Shown piece by piece: positions 4,135 to 18,664 of a DNA stretch of 43,877 nt (positions are counted from its first letter, which is position 1; the number at the start of each line of letters is the position of its first letter). The position numbers and the translations under genes are program-made. A model generated the notes under the pieces. The model was not told where the DNA came from and ran no database searches. It saw nothing but the letters and a program-made list of their open reading frames with translations. This DNA is from Haloferax elongans ATCC BAA-1513. Its GTDB lineage: Archaea > Halobacteriota > Halobacteria > Halobacteriales > Haloferacaceae. The stretch lies in contig NZ_AOLK01000015.1 of assembly GCF_000336755.1 (NCBI RefSeq), positions 160,663 through 204,539 on the forward strand, given 5' to 3'.

Positions 4135-4667
4135 ACGTACACCTCCTTGCGAAGGACGACGAGGACCGCGATTCCGGCGGCCAGCACGACCGCTGCCTCA
4201 CCGAGGGTGTCGAACCCACGGTAGGCGGCCAACACCGCCGTCACGACGTTTTCGACGTCAGTCTGCGGGTACGCGTTTTCGAGGTAGTAGCGCGTCACCT
4301 CAGAGGTTGCGACCGCCGAGTTCGGGTCTCCGATGCGCGGCAGCGAGCGCACCGTCGTCAGCAACACGCCGACGAGGGCCGTCGCTACCGCCGCTGGACC
4401 CCACTTAATTCGCTCGAAGAGGCGGTCGCCACCGGGACGAACCGTCCGAACGATGGTCAAGAGGAACAGGACGGTCGTGACGCCCGCGCCGACGGCCGCT
4501 TCGGTGAGCGCCACGTCGGGTGCGCGCAGAAGGACGTACACCAACGCGATACCGAAGCTGAATCCGGCGAACGCGATAATCGCGCTGAGGATGTCGCGGA
4601 GGAACGCGGCCGCGAGCGCAGCGAATATGACGAACGCGAGCAAGAGCGCGAACAACGTGAGCTGCAC
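4131..4667 (-). CDS. Mrp/Mnh antiporter MbhD/MbhE-like subunit (equivalent of the MrpA C-terminal domain)
   Basis: A 178-residue membrane protein. Its first half has the MbhD (DUF4040) signature LRAPDVALTEAAVGAGVTTVLF, which in bacterial Mrp complexes forms part of the C-terminus of MrpA. The second half (about residues 95-178) resembles MbhE, with a helix, a soluble loop and the motif YRGFDTLGEAAVVLAA at the end. I chose a GTG start because GGAGGTGA lies five bases before it and the upstream mnhG ends two bases earlier; an in-frame GTG three codons upstream is less well placed. The gene splits off domains fused to MrpA in many bacteria and resembles archaeal Mbh/Mbx-type modules. Confidence 0.87.
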   Translation of the reverse strand: MQLTLFALLLAFVIFAALAAAFLRDILSAIIAFAGFSFGIALVYVLLRAPDVALTEAAVGAGVTTVLFLLTIVRTVRPGGDRLFERIKWGPAAVATALVGVLLTTVRSLPRIGDPNSAVATSEVTRYYLENAYPQTDVENVVTAVLAAYRGFDTLGEAAVVLAAGIAVLVVLRKEVYV

Positions 4668-4668
4668 G

Positions 4669-4986
4669 TCAGTCACCTCCTCCGTCGTCTGCAGTCCACG
4701 GTTCGATACCCTGTTCGTAGGCCGCCCGGGTGATGGCGTGAGCGGCCGTCGGGTTAGTGATAAACATGAACAAGAGCAGGAGCGCCGTCTTGACGGCGGC
4801 AACGTCCGCCCCGAAGAGGAGCATGACTCCCCCGAGCGACAGAACCGTTCCGAGGGTGTCACTCTTCGAGGTGGCGTGAGCGCGGGTGTAGAGGTCGGGC
4901 AGTCGGATGATACCGACGACCGCGACGAAGCCGAAAAACACCCCCGCGAGGACGAGCCCCGAGATGAGGTATTCGAGCGGCGTCAT
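4669..4986 (-). CDS. mnhG: Mrp/Mnh antiporter subunit G
   Basis: A 105-residue, three-helix protein of the MnhG family. The motif GIIRLPDLYTRAHATSKSDT matches the conserved RLPD.Y.R.HA....TLG pattern of this subunit. It is a small membrane subunit of the cation/proton antiporter. The ATG at 4986 is preferred over a GTG four codons upstream because that GTG lies directly on the GGAGG of mnhF's last codons. The ATG starts one base after the mnhF stop. The acidic, glycine-rich C-terminus (ADDGGGD) encodes the Shine-Dalgarno sequence of the next gene. Confidence 0.92.
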   Translation of the reverse strand: MTPLEYLISGLVLAGVFFGFVAVVGIIRLPDLYTRAHATSKSDTLGTVLSLGGVMLLFGADVAAVKTALLLLFMFITNPTAAHAITRAAYEQGIEPWTADDGGGD

Positions 4987-4987
4987 C

Positions 4988-5278
4988 TCAGAGCACACCT
5001 CCGCGCTCGACGATGAACTTCGAGATTGCGATGCTTGCGAGGAAGTTCAACAGCGCGTAGACGAGCGCAACGTCGAGGTACCCCGGTTGGCCGAACGCCG
5101 CCGCAGCAAGCGCCAACACGACGACAGTGTTCGTCCCGATGGCGTTGATGGCGATAACGCGGTCTTCCATGGTGGGACCGCGGACCACACGGTAGAGCAG
5201 CACGATGGCGAACGTCGCGAACGCGGCCGCCCCGCCGAGCAGAACCGTTTGGAACGTCGAAAAACCTTCGAGTACCAT
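4988..5278 (-). CDS. mnhF: Mrp/Mnh antiporter subunit F
   Basis: A 96-residue, three-helix membrane protein of the MnhF (MrpF) family. Diagnostic features are the RVVRGPTMEDRVIAINAIG loop, matching RGP...DR..A.d..g, and the final helix with ALLNFLASIAISKFIVERG. It is a structural membrane subunit of the antiporter complex. The ATG follows the mnhE stop (TAA) by two bases and has GGAGG shortly before it, inside the last codons of mnhE. The order E-F-G-B-B-C-D-D is that of archaeal Mrp operons. Confidence 0.92.
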   Translation of the reverse strand: MVLEGFSTFQTVLLGGAAAFATFAIVLLYRVVRGPTMEDRVIAINAIGTNTVVVLALAAAAFGQPGYLDVALVYALLNFLASIAISKFIVERGGVL

Positions 5279-5280
5279 TG

Positions 5281-6372
5281 TTAGGGTTCCTCCGGTGTTT
5301 GTGGAACCGATTCGTCTTCGACCGTCCCGCGCTCTCGCGGGCTCGGGATGCGCGCCGCTGCGCGACCGTAGAAGATGAACCGCACGGCGCGTTCGAGCGT
5401 TCCACCGGCCAGTCCGTCACGAGCCGAGCCAGTAAGCGAGTGAATGACGAGACTGTCTCGGTCGACATCGACAGTGAGCGTGCCCGGCGTCAGCGTGATG
5501 CTGTTCGCCAGCGTCGTCACCGAGAGGTCGTCCCAGATAGCCGCCCGATATCGCTGTATCTTCGGGTCGATAGGCAAGCTCGGGTGGAGGATAATGTACG
5601 CAACCTCGATGTTCGCTTTCAGAATCTCCCACAGCAGGTACGGAACGTACAGGATGAACCGGCCGGTCCGCCTGAGCAGGCGGCCCGCTTTCGGCGTCTC
5701 TCTGAACGTGATACGAGAGAAGACGGTGGTGACGATACCCGCCGAGACTGCGCCGGTAACGAGGTTGAACGTGTCGAGCACACCGGCCAAGAGCAGGTAG
5801 AAACCGAACGATGCGCCGAACATCACGAGCGCTTTCGACAGGTTCGAACGGCTCGGAAACCGTCCGCGCTCGACGACGCGGTCGACAGGGGCTTCCTCGA
5901 CGATACGGTCAGACCGAGAGAGTTCGAGTTCCAGCGGTTGGAGCATCGGTGCGCTCCCGCCAGGCTGGTACTCCGGGTCCACGATGATACGGCCAAGGTC
6001 GCGGTCGCGTGCGTATTCGAGAAGTACGTCCGCGAAGTCACTCGGCGAAAACAGATATCGGTCTTCGCCGACGACAGCCGTCTCTATCGAGACCGGTACA
6101 CCGTCGTCGTCGATTTCACCGTCGTCGTCGTAGTCTAAGTCCTCGGCCGCCCAGACACGCGCTCGGTCGAGTACGTCGGCGACCTCTTCGGACGCCGACC
6201 GTTCGACTTCGTCGACCAACTGCCAGCGGACCGGATAGACGAAATGAACGGTCGCTTCTTCACCCGTTTCGCTGGCGACACGCCGAGCTTCACGAGTTGC
6301 GTACGCGGCCGTGTTCCTGAACGTCGAGGACTCTCCGACAGGGACGAGAATACGTGCGCTCGTCTCTGACAT
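5281..6372 (-). CDS. mnhE: Mrp/Mnh antiporter subunit E fused to an N-terminal universal-stress (UspA-like) domain
   Basis: A 363-residue fusion. Residues 5-160 look like a UspA-type nucleotide-binding fold: a first strand SARILVPVGES, a helix rich in Ala/Arg, the strand EEATVHFVYPV and later DRDLGRIIVDPEY. Residues 180-345 are the MnhE domain, with two membrane helices, the segment LWEILKANIEVAYIILHPS and LANSITLTPGTLTVDV, which is the family signature. Ordinary MnhE proteins are about 160 residues. The ATG at 6372 follows GGAGGTGG. This is the first large gene of the operon. The stress domain may sense nucleotide or energy state, but that is inference. Confidence 0.9.
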   Translation of the reverse strand: MSETSARILVPVGESSTFRNTAAYATREARRVASETGEEATVHFVYPVRWQLVDEVERSASEEVADVLDRARVWAAEDLDYDDDGEIDDDGVPVSIETAVVGEDRYLFSPSDFADVLLEYARDRDLGRIIVDPEYQPGGSAPMLQPLELELSRSDRIVEEAPVDRVVERGRFPSRSNLSKALVMFGASFGFYLLLAGVLDTFNLVTGAVSAGIVTTVFSRITFRETPKAGRLLRRTGRFILYVPYLLWEILKANIEVAYIILHPSLPIDPKIQRYRAAIWDDLSVTTLANSITLTPGTLTVDVDRDSLVIHSLTGSARDGLAGGTLERAVRFIFYGRAAARIPSPRERGTVEDESVPQTPEEP

Positions 6373-6428
6373 CACCCACCTCCGGCGCCGTTCGAGACAG
6401 TTCGCCGCGGATTCAGATACTGACTCAT
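6372..6428 (-). CDS. Short ORF (18 codons) overlapping the mnhE start
   Basis: Reads MSQYLNPRRTVSNGAGGG and stops with the TGA of a TGATG that is also the mnhE start. A weak TATA-like CTTTTGTAA at 6446-6454 would place the transcript start close to this ATG, so the ORF could be translated as a leaderless mini-cistron. Its last codons (GGA GGT GGG) form the Shine-Dalgarno sequence of mnhE. This arrangement suggests that ribosomes entering at the leaderless ATG terminate and restart on mnhE. The peptide itself has no recognisable family and may be unimportant as a product. Confidence 0.4.
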   Translation of the reverse strand: MSQYLNPRRTVSNGAGGG

Positions 6429-6445
6429 AAGCACTATTTCCCACT

Positions 6446-6454
6446 TACAAAAGG
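6446..6454 (-). promoter_or_regulatory. Candidate TATA box of the mnh operon
   Basis: On the minus strand the sequence is CTTTTGTAA, about 26 bp before the short ORF that precedes mnhE. The match to a haloarchaeal TATA box is only fair. No closer candidate is evident between mnhE and the Lrp gene. Confidence 0.35.
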
Positions 6455-6559
6455 CAGGCAAAACGCTTTCCGCTATCGGATGGCGAGTATTGGCGATTCG
6501 ACACACTGTCTGTGGATTAGTTCGGTTCTCGAACGCCGTCCAGTCGAGCGATTTGGCAG

Positions 6560-7045
6560 TCAGTCGTCGTCTTCGTCGGTCGACCCCTTGCCGAAGGGAC
6601 TGTACGGGGAGGTGTACTCGTTGCGGATGAGTTCCTCCTCGGCGATTTCGAAGCCCAGCGCGCTGAGTTCGCGACCGATTCGACTCAAGTCGTCGCTGTT
6701 TCGGCCGAGTGCGGTTATGTGGACGTTCTTCTCGCCGGTCATGATCTCTCGAACCGAGATGACGCCGTCGACTTCCAGTGCCGCCTTTGCGAGTTGCTCT
6801 CGCTCGGGAATCGGCGCGGTACAGAAGATAATCGTGTGGAGTTGGTAGCCCAGCACCTCGTAGTCGATATCGAGATGACTGCCCCGGATAACGCCCTTCG
6901 ATTCGAGCTTTCCGACTCGGTTTCGAACCGTACTCGCCGAGACGCCGAACGCCTCTGCGATGTCGCTTCCGGAGGTGTGTCGAGCGTCCTTCTGAAGCGC
7001 ATAGAGGATGTATTTGTCGAGATCGTCTACCGAGATGGTCGCCAT
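6560..7045 (-). CDS. Lrp/AsnC-family transcriptional regulator
   Basis: A 161-residue protein with an N-terminal winged helix (helix-turn-helix near residues 26-47, SDIAEAFGVSASTVRNRVGK) and a C-terminal RAM-like ligand-sensing domain (about 65-145, with DGVISVREIMTGEKNVHITA). Lrp/AsnC proteins bind DNA as multimers and usually respond to amino acids. It lies between the mnh operon and an amino-acid permease on the same strand, so the permease is the most natural regulatory target; this is inference. The ATG is preceded at the leaderless distance by a TATA-like box. The tail (KGSTDEDDD) is strongly acidic. Confidence 0.92.
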   Translation of the reverse strand: MATISVDDLDKYILYALQKDARHTSGSDIAEAFGVSASTVRNRVGKLESKGVIRGSHLDIDYEVLGYQLHTIIFCTAPIPEREQLAKAALEVDGVISVREIMTGEKNVHITALGRNSDDLSRIGRELSALGFEIAEEELIRNEYTSPYSPFGKGSTDEDDD

Positions 7046-11341: not shown

Positions 11342-11470
11342 CGTCGGCCGTCTTGTGAGAGACACGCCGCGGTTTGAGTGCCTCTAACCTCATATCTCAC
11401 CGCCGGGGTGTGCGTGAGTCGATACCGTCCATCGTGGGTCGGCCTCTCCGTGACACCGCGAACCGCCACA

Positions 11471-11477
11471 TTTTATG
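11471..11477 (+). promoter_or_regulatory. TATA box of hpt
   Basis: TTTTATG centred about 26 bp before the hpt ATG, giving a leaderless transcript. Confidence 0.6.
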
Positions 11478-11499
11478 CCGAACACCGGGAACGGGCGTC

Positions 11500-12066
11500 A
11501 TGGACCAGTTGCGTCAGTCCCTTCTCGACGCGCCGATCATCGAAAAAGGCGATTACGAGTACTTCGTGCATCCCATCAGCGACGGGGTTCCGATGCTCAA
11601 GCCCGGACTCCTCCGTGAAATCGTCATCAAGATTATCCGCAAGGCCAACCTCGAAGACGTCGACAAAATCGTCACGCCCGCAGCGATGGGGATTCACATC
11701 TCCACGGCCGTGTCGCTCATGACCGACATCCCGCTTGTCGTCATCCGAAAGCGCGAGTACGGTCTCGACGGTGAGGTCTCGCTCCACCAGCAGACCGGGT
11801 ACTCCGAGGGTGACATGTTCATCAACGACGTCAACGAGGGCGACCGCGTCCTCGTCCTCGACGACGTGCTCTCGACGGGTGGCACGATGAAGGCCGTCCT
11901 CGACGCACTCGACCACATCGGTGCGGACGTCGTCGACACCGTGGCAATCATCAAGAAAGCCGGTCCGAACGAACTCGACGACTCCGGCCACCACGTCAAG
12001 ACGCTCATCAACGTCACCGTCGAAGACGGCGAAGTCGTCATCGTCGACCAGCACGGCGACGACTGA
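11500..12066 (+). CDS. hpt: Hypoxanthine/guanine phosphoribosyltransferase (haloarchaeal type)
   Basis: A 188-residue type I phosphoribosyltransferase. The PRPP-binding loop [20 protein letters not shown] lies at residues 118-137. An N-terminal hood [20 protein letters not shown] and the segment [20 protein letters not shown] match the archaeal Hpt/adenine-PRTase-like group that salvages hypoxanthine and perhaps guanine to their nucleotides with PRPP. The start at 11500 is chosen because the TATA box sits 26 bp before it and the codons upstream do not look like this family. A T-run (12076-12080) follows the stop. Substrate specificity between hypoxanthine, guanine and adenine cannot be decided from sequence alone. 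Confidence 0.9.
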
Positions 12067-12246: not shown

Positions 12247-12267
12247 TTATTGTCTGCCAGTGACGAT

Positions 12268-14139
12268 ATGGCATCACGTAACAATGTCAGTTTAGATAGA
12301 CGTTCACTCCTTCGGACGCTTGGTGCGGGCGGAATTGTTGGTCTTGCAGGATGTACTGGTGGGAACGATGACACCACGACCACTGCGAGTGATAGTGGCG
12401 AGGGTGGTGGCGGCGATTCGACCGCGACGCCCGCCGAGGACCTCGGCAACACGCTTGTCGGACCCGATGGCGAACAGGTCTCGCTGAGCATGGTCTACAG
12501 CACGGGCAGCGAGACGACCAAGACCATCGCCCAGTTCATGAAACAGGAGTACGGGAAGATGGGTATCGGCGTCGAGTTGACGGGTGTTCCGTTCAACACG
12601 ATGCTGTCGAAGTACGCCCAGAACACGTACAAACCGGAAGACGGCGAAGAGCGCTCCTCGTTCAACGCTGGGCCGCGAGACAAGGCCACGAGCCAAGAGC
12701 AGTGGGACCTCATGCTCGGTATCGGCTTCAACTCCTATCCCCGAACGCCGACCTCGATTCGACCCTTCTGGACGAGCGAGAAGAAACGAAAACAATCTAC
12801 GGTCAACTTCTACGGCTACCGCCCGAGCGAGGACATCGCGGGCATGCTCGACGAAGCGTCCCAAGAGACTGACGAGGCAAAGCGTCAGGAACTCCTCGCG
12901 AACGTCTTCGGCGTCCTCAGCCACGACCAGCCGGTGAACTTCTACGAGTTCTCCGTCGACCTCAACGGCTTCCAGAAGGACGTTCAAGGTATCAAGCCCG
13001 GGCAAAGCATCGGCTACAACTACCAGCAGTACTTCCGCGGCGACTCCGGCGGCTCGGGGTCGATGTCGGGCGGTTACAGTTACGGTGCGGGTACGGACGC
13101 CAAGACGCTCAATCCGATTCGAATCAACGACGAGTCGTCTTCGGACCGGCTCGCGCTCACGCTCGACGGAGCGTACTCGTTCGACAACAACAACGAAATC
13201 GTCTACCGGTGGGTCAAGTCCATCGACACCGACGACAAACAGAACTACGAGTTCACCCTCCGCGACAACCTCCAGTGGGGCGGCGACTACGGCCAGATGA
13301 CCGCCGACGACTGGGTCTACTACATCAAGGAAGTCCACCAGGCCGAGGACAACTGGGCGGGCGACGTGAACCAGTCCGACTGGTTCCGCGGCGAAGAGCC
13401 AATCCCGGTCGAAAAGACTGGCAAACTGAGCTTCGAAATCCAACTTCCCGAGGTCGACCCGGCGTTCATCAAGAAGCCGATTATGTGGGGTGCGATGTGT
13501 CTGCCGAAGGGCCTCGTCGAGAAGTACCACGACATGGACGACGGCGGCAACAAGCTCAACCAATCGACGGCGATTCAGGAGATTACCTACTCCGGCAACC
13601 TCGGGCCGTACACCTTCGAGCGCTGGGACCGAGAGTCGGTGTTCGTCGCCAAGCGCAACGAGAACTACTACCTCCGCGACGCCGAGGACTACGACGGCAC
13701 GCCGAACTTCGAGGAGTACAAGTTCCAGGTGTTCGGCGAGCAGTCGACTCGACTGTCGGCGTTCGAGACCGGGGAAATCGACCAGCTGATGCTTCCTTCC
13801 TCGAAGGCGAAGAAGTTCGAAGACCTCTCGTCGACGAAGGTCATTCAGACGCCCAACGCGTTCTGTTCGATTCTCGCGTACAACCAGCGTGCAAACGGTT
13901 GGGACCAACTTCGCACCCGCGAGGTCCGCAAGGCACTCTCGATGGGTGTGAACAAGAAGACCATCGTCGAGAACATCGACCGCGGCTACGCCAAGGTCGC
14001 CCACACGCACCAGCCTGAGTACTCCAACTGGTTCGACGACTCGAAGGTCGAAAAGACCGGCATCGGCGAGAACTACAGCGCTGCGAAGGCCAAACAGATG
14101 CTCGCCGACAACCTGTCGGGCGACTACAAATTCGAGTGA
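12268..14139 (+). CDS. dppA: ABC transporter substrate-binding lipoprotein, dipeptide/oligopeptide type (SBP_bac_5), apparently circularly permuted
   Basis: A 623-residue exported lipoprotein. The signal has twin arginines (DRRSLL) and a lipobox LAGC, so it should cross by Tat and be lipid-anchored outside the membrane. A Ser/Thr/Gly-rich linker follows. The mature part has the two pieces of an SBP_bac_5 protein in reverse order. Residues 68-250 match the usual C-terminal part (VSLSMVYSTGSETTKTIAQ, GIGVELTGVPFNTML, SYPRTPTSIRPFW). After a GDSGGSGSMSGG linker, residues 270-623 match the usual N-terminal two thirds (GTDAKTLNPIRIN, YEFTLRDNLQW, SGNLGPYTFERWD, FETGEIDQLM, REVRKALSMGVNKKTI), ending where the C-terminal part would start. 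Peptide binding is inferred from family and operon. Confidence 0.88.
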   Translation: MASRNNVSLDRRSLLRTLGAGGIVGLAGCTGGNDDTTTTASDSGEGGGGDSTATPAEDLGNTLVGPDGEQVSLSMVYSTGSETTKTIAQFMKQEYGKMGIGVELTGVPFNTMLSKYAQNTYKPEDGEERSSFNAGPRDKATSQEQWDLMLGIGFNSYPRTPTSIRPFWTSEKKRKQSTVNFYGYRPSEDIAGMLDEASQETDEAKRQELLANVFGVLSHDQPVNFYEFSVDLNGFQKDVQGIKPGQSIGYNYQQYFRGDSGGSGSMSGGYSYGAGTDAKTLNPIRINDESSSDRLALTLDGAYSFDNNNEIVYRWVKSIDTDDKQNYEFTLRDNLQWGGDYGQMTADDWVYYIKEVHQAEDNWAGDVNQSDWFRGEEPIPVEKTGKLSFEIQLPEVDPAFIKKPIMWGAMCLPKGLVEKYHDMDDGGNKLNQSTAIQEITYSGNLGPYTFERWDRESVFVAKRNENYYLRDAEDYDGTPNFEEYKFQVFGEQSTRLSAFETGEIDQLMLPSSKAKKFEDLSSTKVIQTPNAFCSILAYNQRANGWDQLRTREVRKALSMGVNKKTIVENIDRGYAKVAHTHQPEYSNWFDDSKVEKTGIGENYSAAKAKQMLADNLSGDYKFE

Positions 14140-14155
14140 ATCTGGAGGGTCCCCG

Positions 14156-15130
14156 ATGAGCATGCACTGGTACGTCGCCCGCCGCGTCGCGTGGGCAGTG
14201 ATTGCGACGTATCTCATCTTGAGTATCACGTTCGGCCTCCTCGCCGTCGCCCCCGGCGACGGTCAGACGGCCTTTGCGTTCAAGGCCGCCACCCAAGGTG
14301 GCGACGTGGACGAGGCACAGGAGACGTTCGACGAGATTACCGGCCGCGACGAACCGCTGTTGACGCGATACAAGAACTACATGGTGAACATGGCGACGCT
14401 CAACTGGGGGTGGTCGTTCACGCGGAACCAACCGGTGTTAGACGCCATCGCCCAGGCGTACCCCTACTCGTTGATGTACGCCCTTCCAGCGACGCTTATC
14501 TCCATCATCGCCGGGTACGCTATCGGGCTGTATTCGGCGACACACCAGTACACGCTGACCGATTACTTCGGGACGTTCACTGCCTTCTTCGGCATCAGCA
14601 TCCCGAACTTCTGGTTCGGAATCATGTTGATACTGGTGTTCGCCGTGGACTTGGGGTGGTTACCCAGCTACTACCAAACAGGACGAGGTGTCTGGACGGT
14701 TGCGAACGCCAAACAACTCATCTTGCCAATCATCGTCCTCTCGACTGGAGCCATCGCCGGAAACATGCGTTACTCCCGCGCTGAAGCGCTTGAGTACGTC
14801 CACGCCGACTTCGTGAAGACAGCGCGAGCGAAGGGCGCAGACGACTGGCGCGTCCTCGTCAGGCACATCTTCAGACCGGCGCTCGTGCCACTCATGACCA
14901 TCTTGGTCGCCGACATCCTCGGCCTGCTCTTCGCCGGCGCGTACATCACAGAGGTGGTCTTCCAGATTCCCGGCCTCGGGCTGTTGAGTTACAAAGCGAT
15001 TATCCAACAGGACACGGCGCTCGTCATGGCGACGACGCTCATTCCGGTGTTCATCGCAATCATCGGGAACCTCGTCCAAGACATCGCCTACACCGTGTTG
15101 GACCCACGAATCAGCTACGGTGATCGATAA
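14156..15130 (+). CDS. dppB: ABC transporter permease, dipeptide/oligopeptide type (DppB)
   Basis: A 324-residue inner-membrane permease of the DppB/OppB family (binding-protein-dependent transport, BPD_transp_1). The N-terminus MSMHWYVARRVAWAVIATYL starts with the typical RR..W first helix. A large extracytoplasmic loop follows, and near residues 220-250 lies the EAA-type coupling motif YVHADFVKTARAKGADDWRV that docks onto the ATPase. About six helices are visible. The ATG has GGAGGG seven bases upstream and lies 16 bases after the binding-protein gene. The stop shares one base with the start of dppC (TAATG). Confidence 0.93.
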   Translation: MSMHWYVARRVAWAVIATYLILSITFGLLAVAPGDGQTAFAFKAATQGGDVDEAQETFDEITGRDEPLLTRYKNYMVNMATLNWGWSFTRNQPVLDAIAQAYPYSLMYALPATLISIIAGYAIGLYSATHQYTLTDYFGTFTAFFGISIPNFWFGIMLILVFAVDLGWLPSYYQTGRGVWTVANAKQLILPIIVLSTGAIAGNMRYSRAEALEYVHADFVKTARAKGADDWRVLVRHIFRPALVPLMTILVADILGLLFAGAYITEVVFQIPGLGLLSYKAIIQQDTALVMATTLIPVFIAIIGNLVQDIAYTVLDPRISYGDR

Positions 15131-16287
15131 TGGCGGCCGATACGCGCTCCGAGACGGCCGCAACCGAGCGATTCGAGGACGTCGATTGGAACGACGTTGG
15201 TGGCCTCGGCTTCACCCGGCGGACGCTGGCACTCGGTGTCTCCTCGCTGGCCTACGCCGTCGCAGTCCTCTACGACGTGTTCCTCACCGAGGATGCGCTC
15301 ATCTCGGGAACGAACTGGCTGTTCCTCCTCACGCTCCTCGCGGGCGTGTTCTTCGTGGCGTGGCCGCTCGCCGATAACCGACGTCTGACGGCGTACTACT
15401 GGCGGCGATTCAAGAAGAATCGCGCGGCAGTCATCAGTGCCATCTACCTGCTCGTGGTGTTCGTCCTCGGGACGTTCGGCCCGATGCTCATCGCGAAACC
15501 CGAGTTGAACGTCCTCGCGGCGTATCAACCGCCGGTGTTCCTCAGCGTCGACTCCAGCGTCCCCACGAGTTGTGTCGGACAGGCCGCAGAGGGCCTGTGC
15601 CACGGAACGTGGAAGTACCCACTCGGGACGACAAGCGACGGGAAAGGCATCGCCAGACTCGTCGTCTTCGGCATGCGCGTGAGCATGCAGGTCGGCCTCA
15701 TCACCATGCTCATCGTCATCAGCATCGGAACCGTCGTCGGCACGTCGGCGGCGTACTTCTCCGGTCTCGTCGATGAGCTATTAATGCGCTATGTCGACAT
15801 CCAGCAGACGTTCCCGACGTTCTTCCTGTTCCTCATCGTGACGTACCTGTTCAAGCCGAGCCTGTTCTTACTCATCACGATTTTCGGCTTCCTCGGATGG
15901 GGCGGTATCGCCCGACTGGTTCGCTCCGAAGCGCTCCAGCGACGCGAGGAGTCGTACATTCAGGCCGCCGAAAACGCAGGGGCCTCGGACGGATGGATAA
16001 TCCGCCGACACCTGATGCCGAACGTGTCGAACACGGTCATCACGGCCGCGACGCTTCTCATCCCGTCGTTCATCCTGTTCGAAGCGACGTTCGCGTTCCT
16101 CGGGCTGACCGACCCCTCGACGCCGTCGTGGGGACAGGTCATCTCCTCGGGACGCGGCGACCTCGACAGTGCGTGGTGGATTGCAACGATTCCCGGCGTG
16201 TTCCTGTTCTTCACCGTGCTGGCGTTCAACTTCGTCGGCGACGCGTTGCGTGACGCGCTTGACCCACGCTCGGAGGGAGACGCATGA
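15130..16287 (+). CDS. dppC: ABC transporter permease, dipeptide/oligopeptide type (DppC), with extra N-terminal helices
   Basis: A 385-residue permease, longer than the usual DppC of about 300. The core (from about residue 85) has the OppC N-terminal helix [20 protein letters not shown] and the coupling loop [20 protein letters not shown] near residues 274-293. The C-terminal [18 protein letters not shown] is the usual DppC signature. About 85 residues precede this core and include two predicted hydrophobic helices ([19 protein letters not shown] and [17 protein letters not shown]). It overlaps dppB by one base and dppD by four. Confidence 0.92.
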
Positions 16288-17363
16288 CCGACCCGCTTCT
16301 CTCCGTCCGCGACCTGCACGTCCAGTTCAACACCGACGAAGGCACTGTCCGCGCCGTCGACGGCGTCTCGTTCGACGTCGCCCGCGGCGAGACGGTGTGT
16401 GTCGTCGGTGAGTCCGGTTCGGGGAAGACGGTCGCCTGTGAGTCCATCACGAAACTCATCCCGATGCCGCCGGGAGAAATCGCTGGCGGCGAGATTCTGT
16501 TCGACGGTGAAGACCTCACTGAGGCATCCGAAAAGCGCCTCGAAGACATCCGTGGCGGCCGAATCGCCCACGTCTTCCAGAATCCGCAGAGTGCGCTCAA
16601 CCCGGTCTATCCGGTCGGGGCGCAAATCGTCGAAGCGATTCGACTCCATAGAGACGTGTCGAAAGAGGCAGCGCGCGACCGCGCTATCGACCTCCTCGAC
16701 CGCGTCGGTATCCCGGAGGCGACCGCCCGCATCGACGACTATCCACACGAGTTCTCCGGCGGCATGAAACAGCGCGTGGTCATCGCCATGGCGCTGGCCG
16801 CCGACCCGGACCTTCTTATCGCCGACGAACCGACGACGGCGCTCGACGTGACGATTCAAGCGCAGATTCTCCGACTCCTCCGCGACCTGCAAGACGAGTT
16901 CGGAATGAGCATCGTCTTTGTCACCCACGACCTCGGCGTCGTCGCCGAAATCGCAGACCGAGTCGTCGTCATGTACTCGGGCAAGGTGATGGAGACCGGT
17001 CCCGTCTACGACGTGTTCGAACAGCCGTCGCACCCATACACGAAGGCCTTGCTCGGGTGTCTCCCGGGACAAGGGAAGTCGATGGAACCCATCGGCGGCA
17101 CGCTCCCCGACCCGAAGAACCCGCCCGCAGGCTGCCGATTCCACCCGCGATGCCCGCACGCGACAACCGACTGTCGCACGGGCGACCATCCCGAACTGCT
17201 CGACGTGGGGACCGACCACGAAGCCGCGTGTGTGTACTACGGGCCGGGATACGACGCCTCGGTCATTCGGGGCGACGCCGTCTCGGAGTCGACTGCGGCA
17301 GATGGGGGTTCCGAGGGCGGAACGCCTGGAGACGCAAGCAAATCTGGAGGTGACGACCGATGA
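16284..17363 (+). CDS. dppD: ABC transporter ATP-binding protein, dipeptide/oligopeptide type (DppD)
   Basis: A 359-residue cytoplasmic ATPase subunit. Walker A is GESGSGKT near residue 45, the ABC signature is FSGGMKQR, and Walker B is [15 protein letters not shown]. The oligopeptide-family C-terminal domain follows, with the cysteine pattern CRFHPRC-HATTDC and a last cysteine in EAACVYYG. In related DppD proteins this domain has been reported to hold an iron-sulfur cluster. It should pair with DppF to drive import. The start (ATGACC) overlaps the dppC stop by four bases. The acidic tail carries the Shine-Dalgarno for dppF. Confidence 0.93.
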
Positions 17364-18664
17364 GTTCTGACCCACTGTTGTCGGTTCGCGGACTGAAGAA
17401 GCACTACCCGATTACGGAGGGCGTCCTCAAGAAGGAAGTCGGCCGGGTGAAAGCGGTCGACGGCATCTCCTTCGACGTCGAATCCGGTGAGACGCTCGGA
17501 CTAGTCGGCGAGTCCGGCTGTGGCAAGTCCACGGCCGCGACGTCGCTCCTTCGATTAGAAGACCCGACAGACGGTGATATCGTCTTCGACGGCGAGGACA
17601 TCACCGAGTTCGACGACACGCGACTGAAGTCGTTCCGCCGACGGGCGCAGATGATGTTCCAAGACCCGTCGTCGAGTTTCGACCCGCGGATGAGCGTCGG
17701 CGAGTCGGTCGCCGAACCGCTCGAAATCCACGGGATGCGCGACCGAAGTCGTCGCCGTCGCATCGTCGAGAACCTCCTCGAACGCGTCGGACTGTCGGCG
17801 TCGGACTTCGACCGATACCCACACGAATTCTCCGGCGGACAGAAACAGCGCATCGCCCTCGCGCGGGCGCTGGTCCTGAATCCGGACATTATCGTCGCCG
17901 ACGAACCAGTCTCCGCGCTGGACGTGTCCATCCAGGCCGAGATTATCTCGCTGATGCGCGACCTGCAAGACGAGTTCGACCTCGCTATCGTGTTCATCAG
18001 CCACGACCTCGGCGTGGTCCGCGAGGTGTGCGACCGCGTGGCCGTGATGTACCTCGGCGAAATCGTCGAGGTTGCGGACACGGAGACGCTGTTTACCGAC
18101 CCGCAGCATCCCTACACGCGCGCACTCCTCTCGTCGATTCCGACGCCGGACCCGACCCGCCGCAACGAGCAAATAGAACTCACCGGCGACGTGCCGAGCC
18201 CGTCGAACCCGCCGTCTGGCTGTCGGTTCCACACGCGCTGTCCCGAGGTCATCCCACCCGCGGAGTTCGACCTCGACCAAGACGAGTGGCGGCACGTCCT
18301 CGACCTGCGACTCCGCGTCGATAGTGGTCTCGACGTCGAAGACGTGCGTTCGTTCCTCGTCGCCGAGGGGGTCGCAAACGACCCCGAGGCCGTTCCCGAC
18401 GACGCCGTCGAGCGCGAACTCCGACGCGAGTTCGACATCCCCGAGACGCTCTCGGACGCGGCGGCGGAAACAGTCCTCTCGGAAGGACTCACGGCACTCG
18501 TCTCCGGCGACCACGACCACGCGAAACAGACGCTCGACGAAGCGTTCTCCACCGTGTGCGAACGGGACGCTCCCACTCTCGAAACGTCGGAACGAGGGTC
18601 GACCGCTGCCTGTCACCTCGTCGATGAGAGCGTGACTGTCGAATCGCCCGTGACCAACGACTAA
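17360..18664 (+). CDS. dppF: ABC transporter ATP-binding protein, dipeptide/oligopeptide type (DppF), with an insertion in its C-terminal cysteine domain
   Basis: A 434-residue ATPase with Walker A GESGCGKST, signature FSGGQKQR and Walker B IIVADEPVSALDVS. The first 290 residues are a standard DppF. In the C-terminal cysteine domain the first pair CRFHTRC (C288, C294) is separated from the other two cysteines (C400 in VCERDAP, C418 in AACHLV) by about 105 residues, where family members, including the neighbouring DppD, have fewer than ten. The insert is acidic and helical (VRSFLVAEGVANDPEAVPDD, ALVSGDHDHAKQTLDEAFST). The gene closes the operon and overlaps dppD by four bases. Confidence 0.92.
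   Translation: MSSDPLLSVRGLKKHYPITEGVLKKEVGRVKAVDGISFDVESGETLGLVGESGCGKSTAATSLLRLEDPTDGDIVFDGEDITEFDDTRLKSFRRRAQMMFQDPSSSFDPRMSVGESVAEPLEIHGMRDRSRRRRIVENLLERVGLSASDFDRYPHEFSGGQKQRIALARALVLNPDIIVADEPVSALDVSIQAEIISLMRDLQDEFDLAIVFISHDLGVVREVCDRVAVMYLGEIVEVADTETLFTDPQHPYTRALLSSIPTPDPTRRNEQIELTGDVPSPSNPPSGCRFHTRCPEVIPPAEFDLDQDEWRHVLDLRLRVDSGLDVEDVRSFLVAEGVANDPEAVPDDAVERELRREFDIPETLSDAAAETVLSEGLTALVSGDHDHAKQTLDEAFSTVCERDAPTLETSERGSTAACHLVDESVTVESPVTND

Follow-up and report, generated by a model that had tools for sequence, protein, structure and literature searches.

A circularly permuted SBP_bac_5 protein in Haloferax elongans and repeated segment re-ordering in its haloarchaeal family

In the 43,877-nucleotide stretch of Haloferax elongans ATCC BAA-1513 analysed here (the window), a gene encoding a putative substrate-binding lipoprotein is followed directly by dppB-dppC-dppD-dppF (Table 1). 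The operon thus has a pair of permeases and a pair of ATPases, all from the Dpp/Opp family, as in ABC importers of this type. An in-frame TTG is also present upstream of the ATG, at 12250. The substrate-binding protein (SBP) starts with MASRNNVSLDRRSLLRTLGAGGIVGLAGC; this signal, which lies ahead of the C-piece, carries a twin arginine and a lipobox cysteine, from which the protein is predicted to be a Tat-exported lipoprotein.

Table 1. Features of the SBP gene and of its neighbours in the window
Feature	Coordinates	Strand	Evidence
Hypoxanthine/guanine phosphoribosyltransferase (HPT_Archaea)	11374..12066	+	NCBIfam NF040646 247.5 bits, cut-off 200
Putative substrate-binding lipoprotein ORF	12268-14139	+	ATG 12268, stop 14137-14139, 623 aa
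Tat-type lipoprotein signal RR...LAGC29, residues 1-29	12268..12354	+	Sequence; twin-Arg and lipobox
Gly/Ser/Asp/Thr low-complexity spacer, residues 30-59, after lipid-anchor Cys	12355..12444	+	Sequence
C-piece, residues 60-256, normally C-terminal third of SBP	12445..13035	+	Family HMM 365-559; PF00496 285-366 (residues 68-173)
Linker RGDSGGSG, residues 257-264, ancestral C-terminus to ancestral N-terminus	13036..13059	+	Short, Gly/Ser-rich
N-piece, residues 265-623, normally N-terminal two thirds	13060..14136	+	Family HMM 5-364; PF00496 6-275 (residues 315-614)
DppB/OppB-type permease	14156..15130	+	NCBIfam Opp2B 2e-68; same gene order beside permuted and normal SBPs
DppC/OppC-type permease	15130..16287	+	NCBIfam Opp4C 4e-71
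DppD/OppD-type ATPase	16284..17363	+	NCBIfam 3.4e-102
DppF/OppF-type ATPase	17360..18664	+	NCBIfam 7.3e-118

The protein scores 149.8 bits against SBP_bac_5 (PF00496; curated cut-off 32.4; E 1.5e-43 for the whole protein), and its first piece alone is matched with an E value of 9.4e-6. The seven other SBP_bac_5 genes of the genome each give one match in normal order. We also used a family HMM of 563 positions trained on 66 normal-order haloarchaeal homologues, with permuted sequences kept out of the training set; in its listing the ORF begins 31 residues upstream of the ATG at 12268. This HMM matches the C-piece with 211 bits and the N-piece with 489 bits, and no segment is lost or doubled at the cut. 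All 66 normal-order homologues (the same 66 that trained the HMM) give one continuous match, from about position 2 to 562, and all 42 permuted homologues give two, C-piece then N-piece. The standard segment order of SBP_bac_5 and of cluster C is N to C; here the C-piece comes first, which makes the window protein a circular permutant of the family and not one of its standard members. It shows what marks a natural circular permutant: homologues occur in both orders, the whole sequence is kept and the ancestral termini are joined. The original prediction, that the normally C-terminal portion is followed by a Gly/Ser linker and then by the normal N-terminal two thirds, is borne out by PF00496, the family HMM and the linker RGDSGGSG, and the PF00496 coordinates run 285-366 and then 6-275, not in normal order. 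Its claim of a re-ordering and not a truncation also holds: neither piece lacks anything, a single reading frame runs through both, each is under purifying selection, and their HMM positions come in reverse order.

Among 391 genomes of the class, a survey recovered 42 permuted and 66 normal-order homologues; the permuted order, whose spread the original prediction had left to such a survey, is not an isolated case. Permuted forms occur in three families (codes f1, f3 and f4) and 13 genera, the four named Haloferax loci being counted with genus code g1, and within Haloferax in 7 of the 15 genomes examined. Both orders coexist within genera g2, g37, g42, g45, g55 and g65. Normal-order homologues are 47-70% identical to both permuted pieces, with the pieces in the opposite order. 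For instance, in L070 (Halorussus halophilus, plasmid NZ_CP044524.1) residues 434-612 are 53% identical to the window C-piece and residues 71-433 are 54.5% identical to the N-piece, the two pieces abutting in the opposite order; similarly, normal-order L128 is 66% and 70% identical to the pieces of permuted L052 from the same genus. Viral contigs were scanned for relatives and none were found there.

Ahead of the first domain, a twin-arginine and lipobox pattern is present in 41 of the 42 permuted homologues and in 64 of the 66 with normal order. The L070 gene (5322-7214, + strand) encodes a twin-arginine signal but lacks a clear lipobox cysteine (GVAGVGSVGAQ), and its product may be soluble instead of lipid-anchored. 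In L103 (5100-6851, +) a normal-order family gene carries an in-frame stop that leaves open frames of 396 and 187 codons, either a broken gene or a sequencing error; we rejected it as a two-gene intermediate, since it is a normal-order gene interrupted by a stop.

The permuted forms use two cut sites, which flank one helix (E. coli DppA ...TYDPEKAKALLKEAG...). Site P1, at HMM positions 364|365, is found in the Haloferax group and in L052. The cut of group B (355|367) is P1 within limits, mapped less exactly because the group B sequences are divergent. Site P2 (332|335) is found in 17 genomes of genus g2; in these proteins the mature domain starts with the flanking helix, and zero to one residue separates the HMM matches where the old termini are joined. 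From the alignment we infer that the cut is located in a loop. AlphaFold models reached a pLDDT of 32 from the single sequence and of 28 with five close Haloferax orthologues, and were unusable. Among the solved chains listed for a search with the permuted profile there was no full-length match, and the best stretches covered the N-piece only.

The order dppB-dppC-dppD-dppF is kept beside most permuted and normal-order homologues, and the operon is retained in 30 of the 36 permuted loci with flanks. In the other six (L062, L063, L066, L068, L069 and L108; orphan SBPs) no Dpp permease homologue was recognised within the fetched flanks. In the DppBCDF tree of genus g2, operons of the permuted kind are interleaved with those that carry a normal-order SBP, and the closest permuted/normal pairs are 86-89% identical in DppB and 85-90% in DppC. 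In the closest pair, L116 and L058, DppBCDF is 91% identical (DppB 89%, DppC 90%) and the re-ordered SBPs are 68% identical. On the simplest view, the importer takes SBPs of either order, and the pattern suggests that SBP genes of both orders have been swapped between g2 operons. Because DppBCDF is about 90% identical across both orders in this genus, the re-ordered SBP probably works with the same importer. An importer that takes either order counts against a large change in docking to DppB/DppC, which appears less likely. As a separate observation in g2, L115, L116, L118 and L121 are about 90% identical in DppBCDF to L054-L064, with SBPs of either order.

With regard to the solute, the residues that hold dipeptide termini in E. 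coli DppA, Arg383 and Asp436 (precursor numbering), are not recognisably kept: most members of the family have A, S or T in the Arg383 column, and the Asp436 column aligns poorly. As R383 is not conserved, the window protein is probably not a DppA-like dipeptide binder. An HPT_Archaea gene lies just upstream of the SBP gene in four permuted (Haloferax) and 11 normal-order loci. Given this gene and the A/S/T column, purine-type ligands are worth considering, and the HPT_Archaea neighbour may hint at a purine-related solute.

The gene product is very probably a working SBP lipoprotein of family 5 (SBP_bac_5, cluster C) in circularly permuted form, serving a Dpp/Opp-type ABC importer. In the fold, the former N- and C-termini would lie close together, joined by a linker of 0-16 residues, and the two-lobed type II fold with its large cleft would form again. 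On the E. coli DppA precursor the new termini fall at residue ~374 (P1) or 347-350 (P2), and from the lobe layout of DppA we take both cuts to be in the C-lobe. With the new termini there, the lipid tether, attached at the N-lobe in the normal order, would hang from the C-lobe at the cut. The protein would otherwise act as an ordinary Venus-flytrap SBP that hands its solute to a DppBCDF of the same kind; the general layout of DppA and the contacts of its lobes with the DppB scoop have been described (PMC12136057). Tandem duplication followed by in-frame fusion and trimming is the probable route. In L052 the N-piece is preceded by an acidic linker of 16 residues, which is like the post-lipobox spacer of normal-order L128; the resemblance supports this route but is suggestive only. 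No fused N-C-N-C intermediate was seen among the fetched loci, which were not searched systematically for one. In L098, two family genes of normal order lie a few kb apart on one strand (4599-6614 and 12268-14253, +), and this pair could be the type of duplication that precedes a permutation.

The trees came from short searches; for those of the SBP, permuted sequences were first put into normal order. On the tree of 84 sequences, the order label requires three changes, in groups A (Haloferax and two relatives), B and C. Forcing all permuted sequences into one clade was rejected (dlnL 532, p 2e-71). When extra normal-order relatives were added, group C divided into L052 and the P2 group, so that at least four order changes are required. 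In the SBP tree and the DppBCDF tree alike, L052 (cut at P1) adjoins L128, a normal-order sequence from the same genus, and in the SBP tree the P2 group adjoins normal-order genes of its own genus. The DppBCDF genes, which are independent of the SBP alignment, also keep A, B and C separate, and one permuted clade was rejected on them (dlnL 1686, p 2e-7). AU tests on the pairs A+B and L052+P2, framed after a tree had been seen, rejected the first on the SBP (dlnL 78, p 2e-4) and on DppBCDF (dlnL 212, p 3e-8), and the second on the SBP (dlnL 44, p 0.011). In all, this SBP family has seen four or more changes of segment order, at two neighbouring cut sites. Some of these changes could in principle be reversals to normal order; any reversal would itself be a re-ordering, and normal order prevails in the family at large.

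Alternatively, the permutation arose once, long ago, and was passed on by vertical descent and by horizontal transfer, the apparent repeats being due to tree error. This would account for the same or nearly the same cut in groups A and B and in L052. Movement of SBP genes from operon to operon does occur, as the SBP and DppBCDF trees conflict in genus g2. Against this stand the cost of one clade on both data sets, the rejection of A+B alone on both, the different cut site of the P2 group and the pairing of L052 with L128, and we consider a single origin very improbable. Assembly errors can produce swaps of gene order, and the gene of one normal-order relative, L103, is interrupted by a stop. 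For the permuted gene itself, decay, mis-assembly or a functionless fusion of truncated paralogues has a negligible probability given the 42 loci from different genomes, full HMM coverage, low dN/dS and conserved operon. The dN/dS values of Haloferax orthologues are 0.02-0.11 for the C-piece and 0.09-0.23 for the N-piece, so that in Haloferax strong purifying selection acts on both pieces. Truncation, frameshift and assembly artefact were rejected on the number of loci and on dN/dS well below 1, and a fusion of unrelated paralogues was rejected as identity to a given normal-order homologue is similar for the N-piece and the C-piece.

The choice is closer as to why the order changed. The permuted forms may be neutral products of tandem duplication and trimming in the operon, with no gain from the move of the tether; we give this close to an even chance. 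It fits the pairing of both SBP orders with nearly the same permeases and their persistence in the same genera, and it is compatible with the identity of the protein as a permuted SBP. The recurrence, the use of just two cut sites flanking one helix and the retention of all segments suggest constraint instead, but structural tolerance could yield recurrent cuts at two sites without any advantage. Alternatively, the move of the lipid anchor from N-lobe to C-lobe may itself have been selected, for example through lobe closure, docking, or Tat export and lipidation. The family consists almost wholly of predicted lipoproteins, independent order changes put the anchor at the same place, and tethering was raised for the permuted Treponema MglB-2 by its authors (PMC4990184); yet the 66 normal-order homologues, nearly all predicted lipoproteins, persist without a moved anchor, and we regard selection on the anchor as rather unlikely. 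It is equally doubtful that an advantage of a C-lobe anchor explains the four or more permutations, at two neighbouring sites, of SBPs of the peptide/nickel class. Overall, we lean slightly towards neutral re-ordering.

Whatever the cause, evolution can repeatedly re-wire this SBP while its transporter partner is kept. We know of few families in which natural circular permutation has recurred and permuted and normal forms live on side by side in the same genera. Routine domain annotation hides the re-ordering, as just the larger piece passes the cut-off, and other permuted SBPs may have been overlooked. If it were true, repeated selection on tether attachment would set apart a permuted sub-class within cluster C. 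Permuted and normal-order SBPs on DppBCDF about 90% identical form natural pairs for testing which lobe carries the tether, a question raised for Treponema MglB-2 and left open there (PMC4990184).

The closest known systems are the normal-order haloarchaeal SBP_bac_5 lipoproteins of this family (for example L070 and L024), which are about 54% identical over both pieces and have the same DppBCDF operon and a similar low-complexity spacer. They differ in that their pieces run N then C, and L070 also in its want of a clear lipobox. The Halorussus locus is annotated 'ABC transporter substrate-binding protein'. E. coli DppA, of DppABCDF, belongs to the same SBP_bac_5 family and serves the same importer type, but has the normal order and a carboxylate-binding Arg383 in the column that is A, S or T in most of the haloarchaeal family (PMC12136057). 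In the open-access literature we found no report of permuted SBPs of the SBP_bac_5 or oligopeptide class, of recurrence there or of haloarchaeal cases. Treponema pallidum Tp0684 (TpMglB-2) likewise serves an ABC importer as a lipid-tethered SBP with a natural circular permutation, and it still binds ligand and changes shape (PMC4990184). Unlike the haloarchaeal proteins, it is of the type I / cluster B sugar-binder class, is cut in the N-lobe and was presented as one sub-class, for which its authors proposed 'Type Ic / Cluster Bc', with tethering as a possible reason (PMC4990184). Circular permutation of SBPs is thus already known, and its recurrence in the peptide/nickel class is the surprising part.
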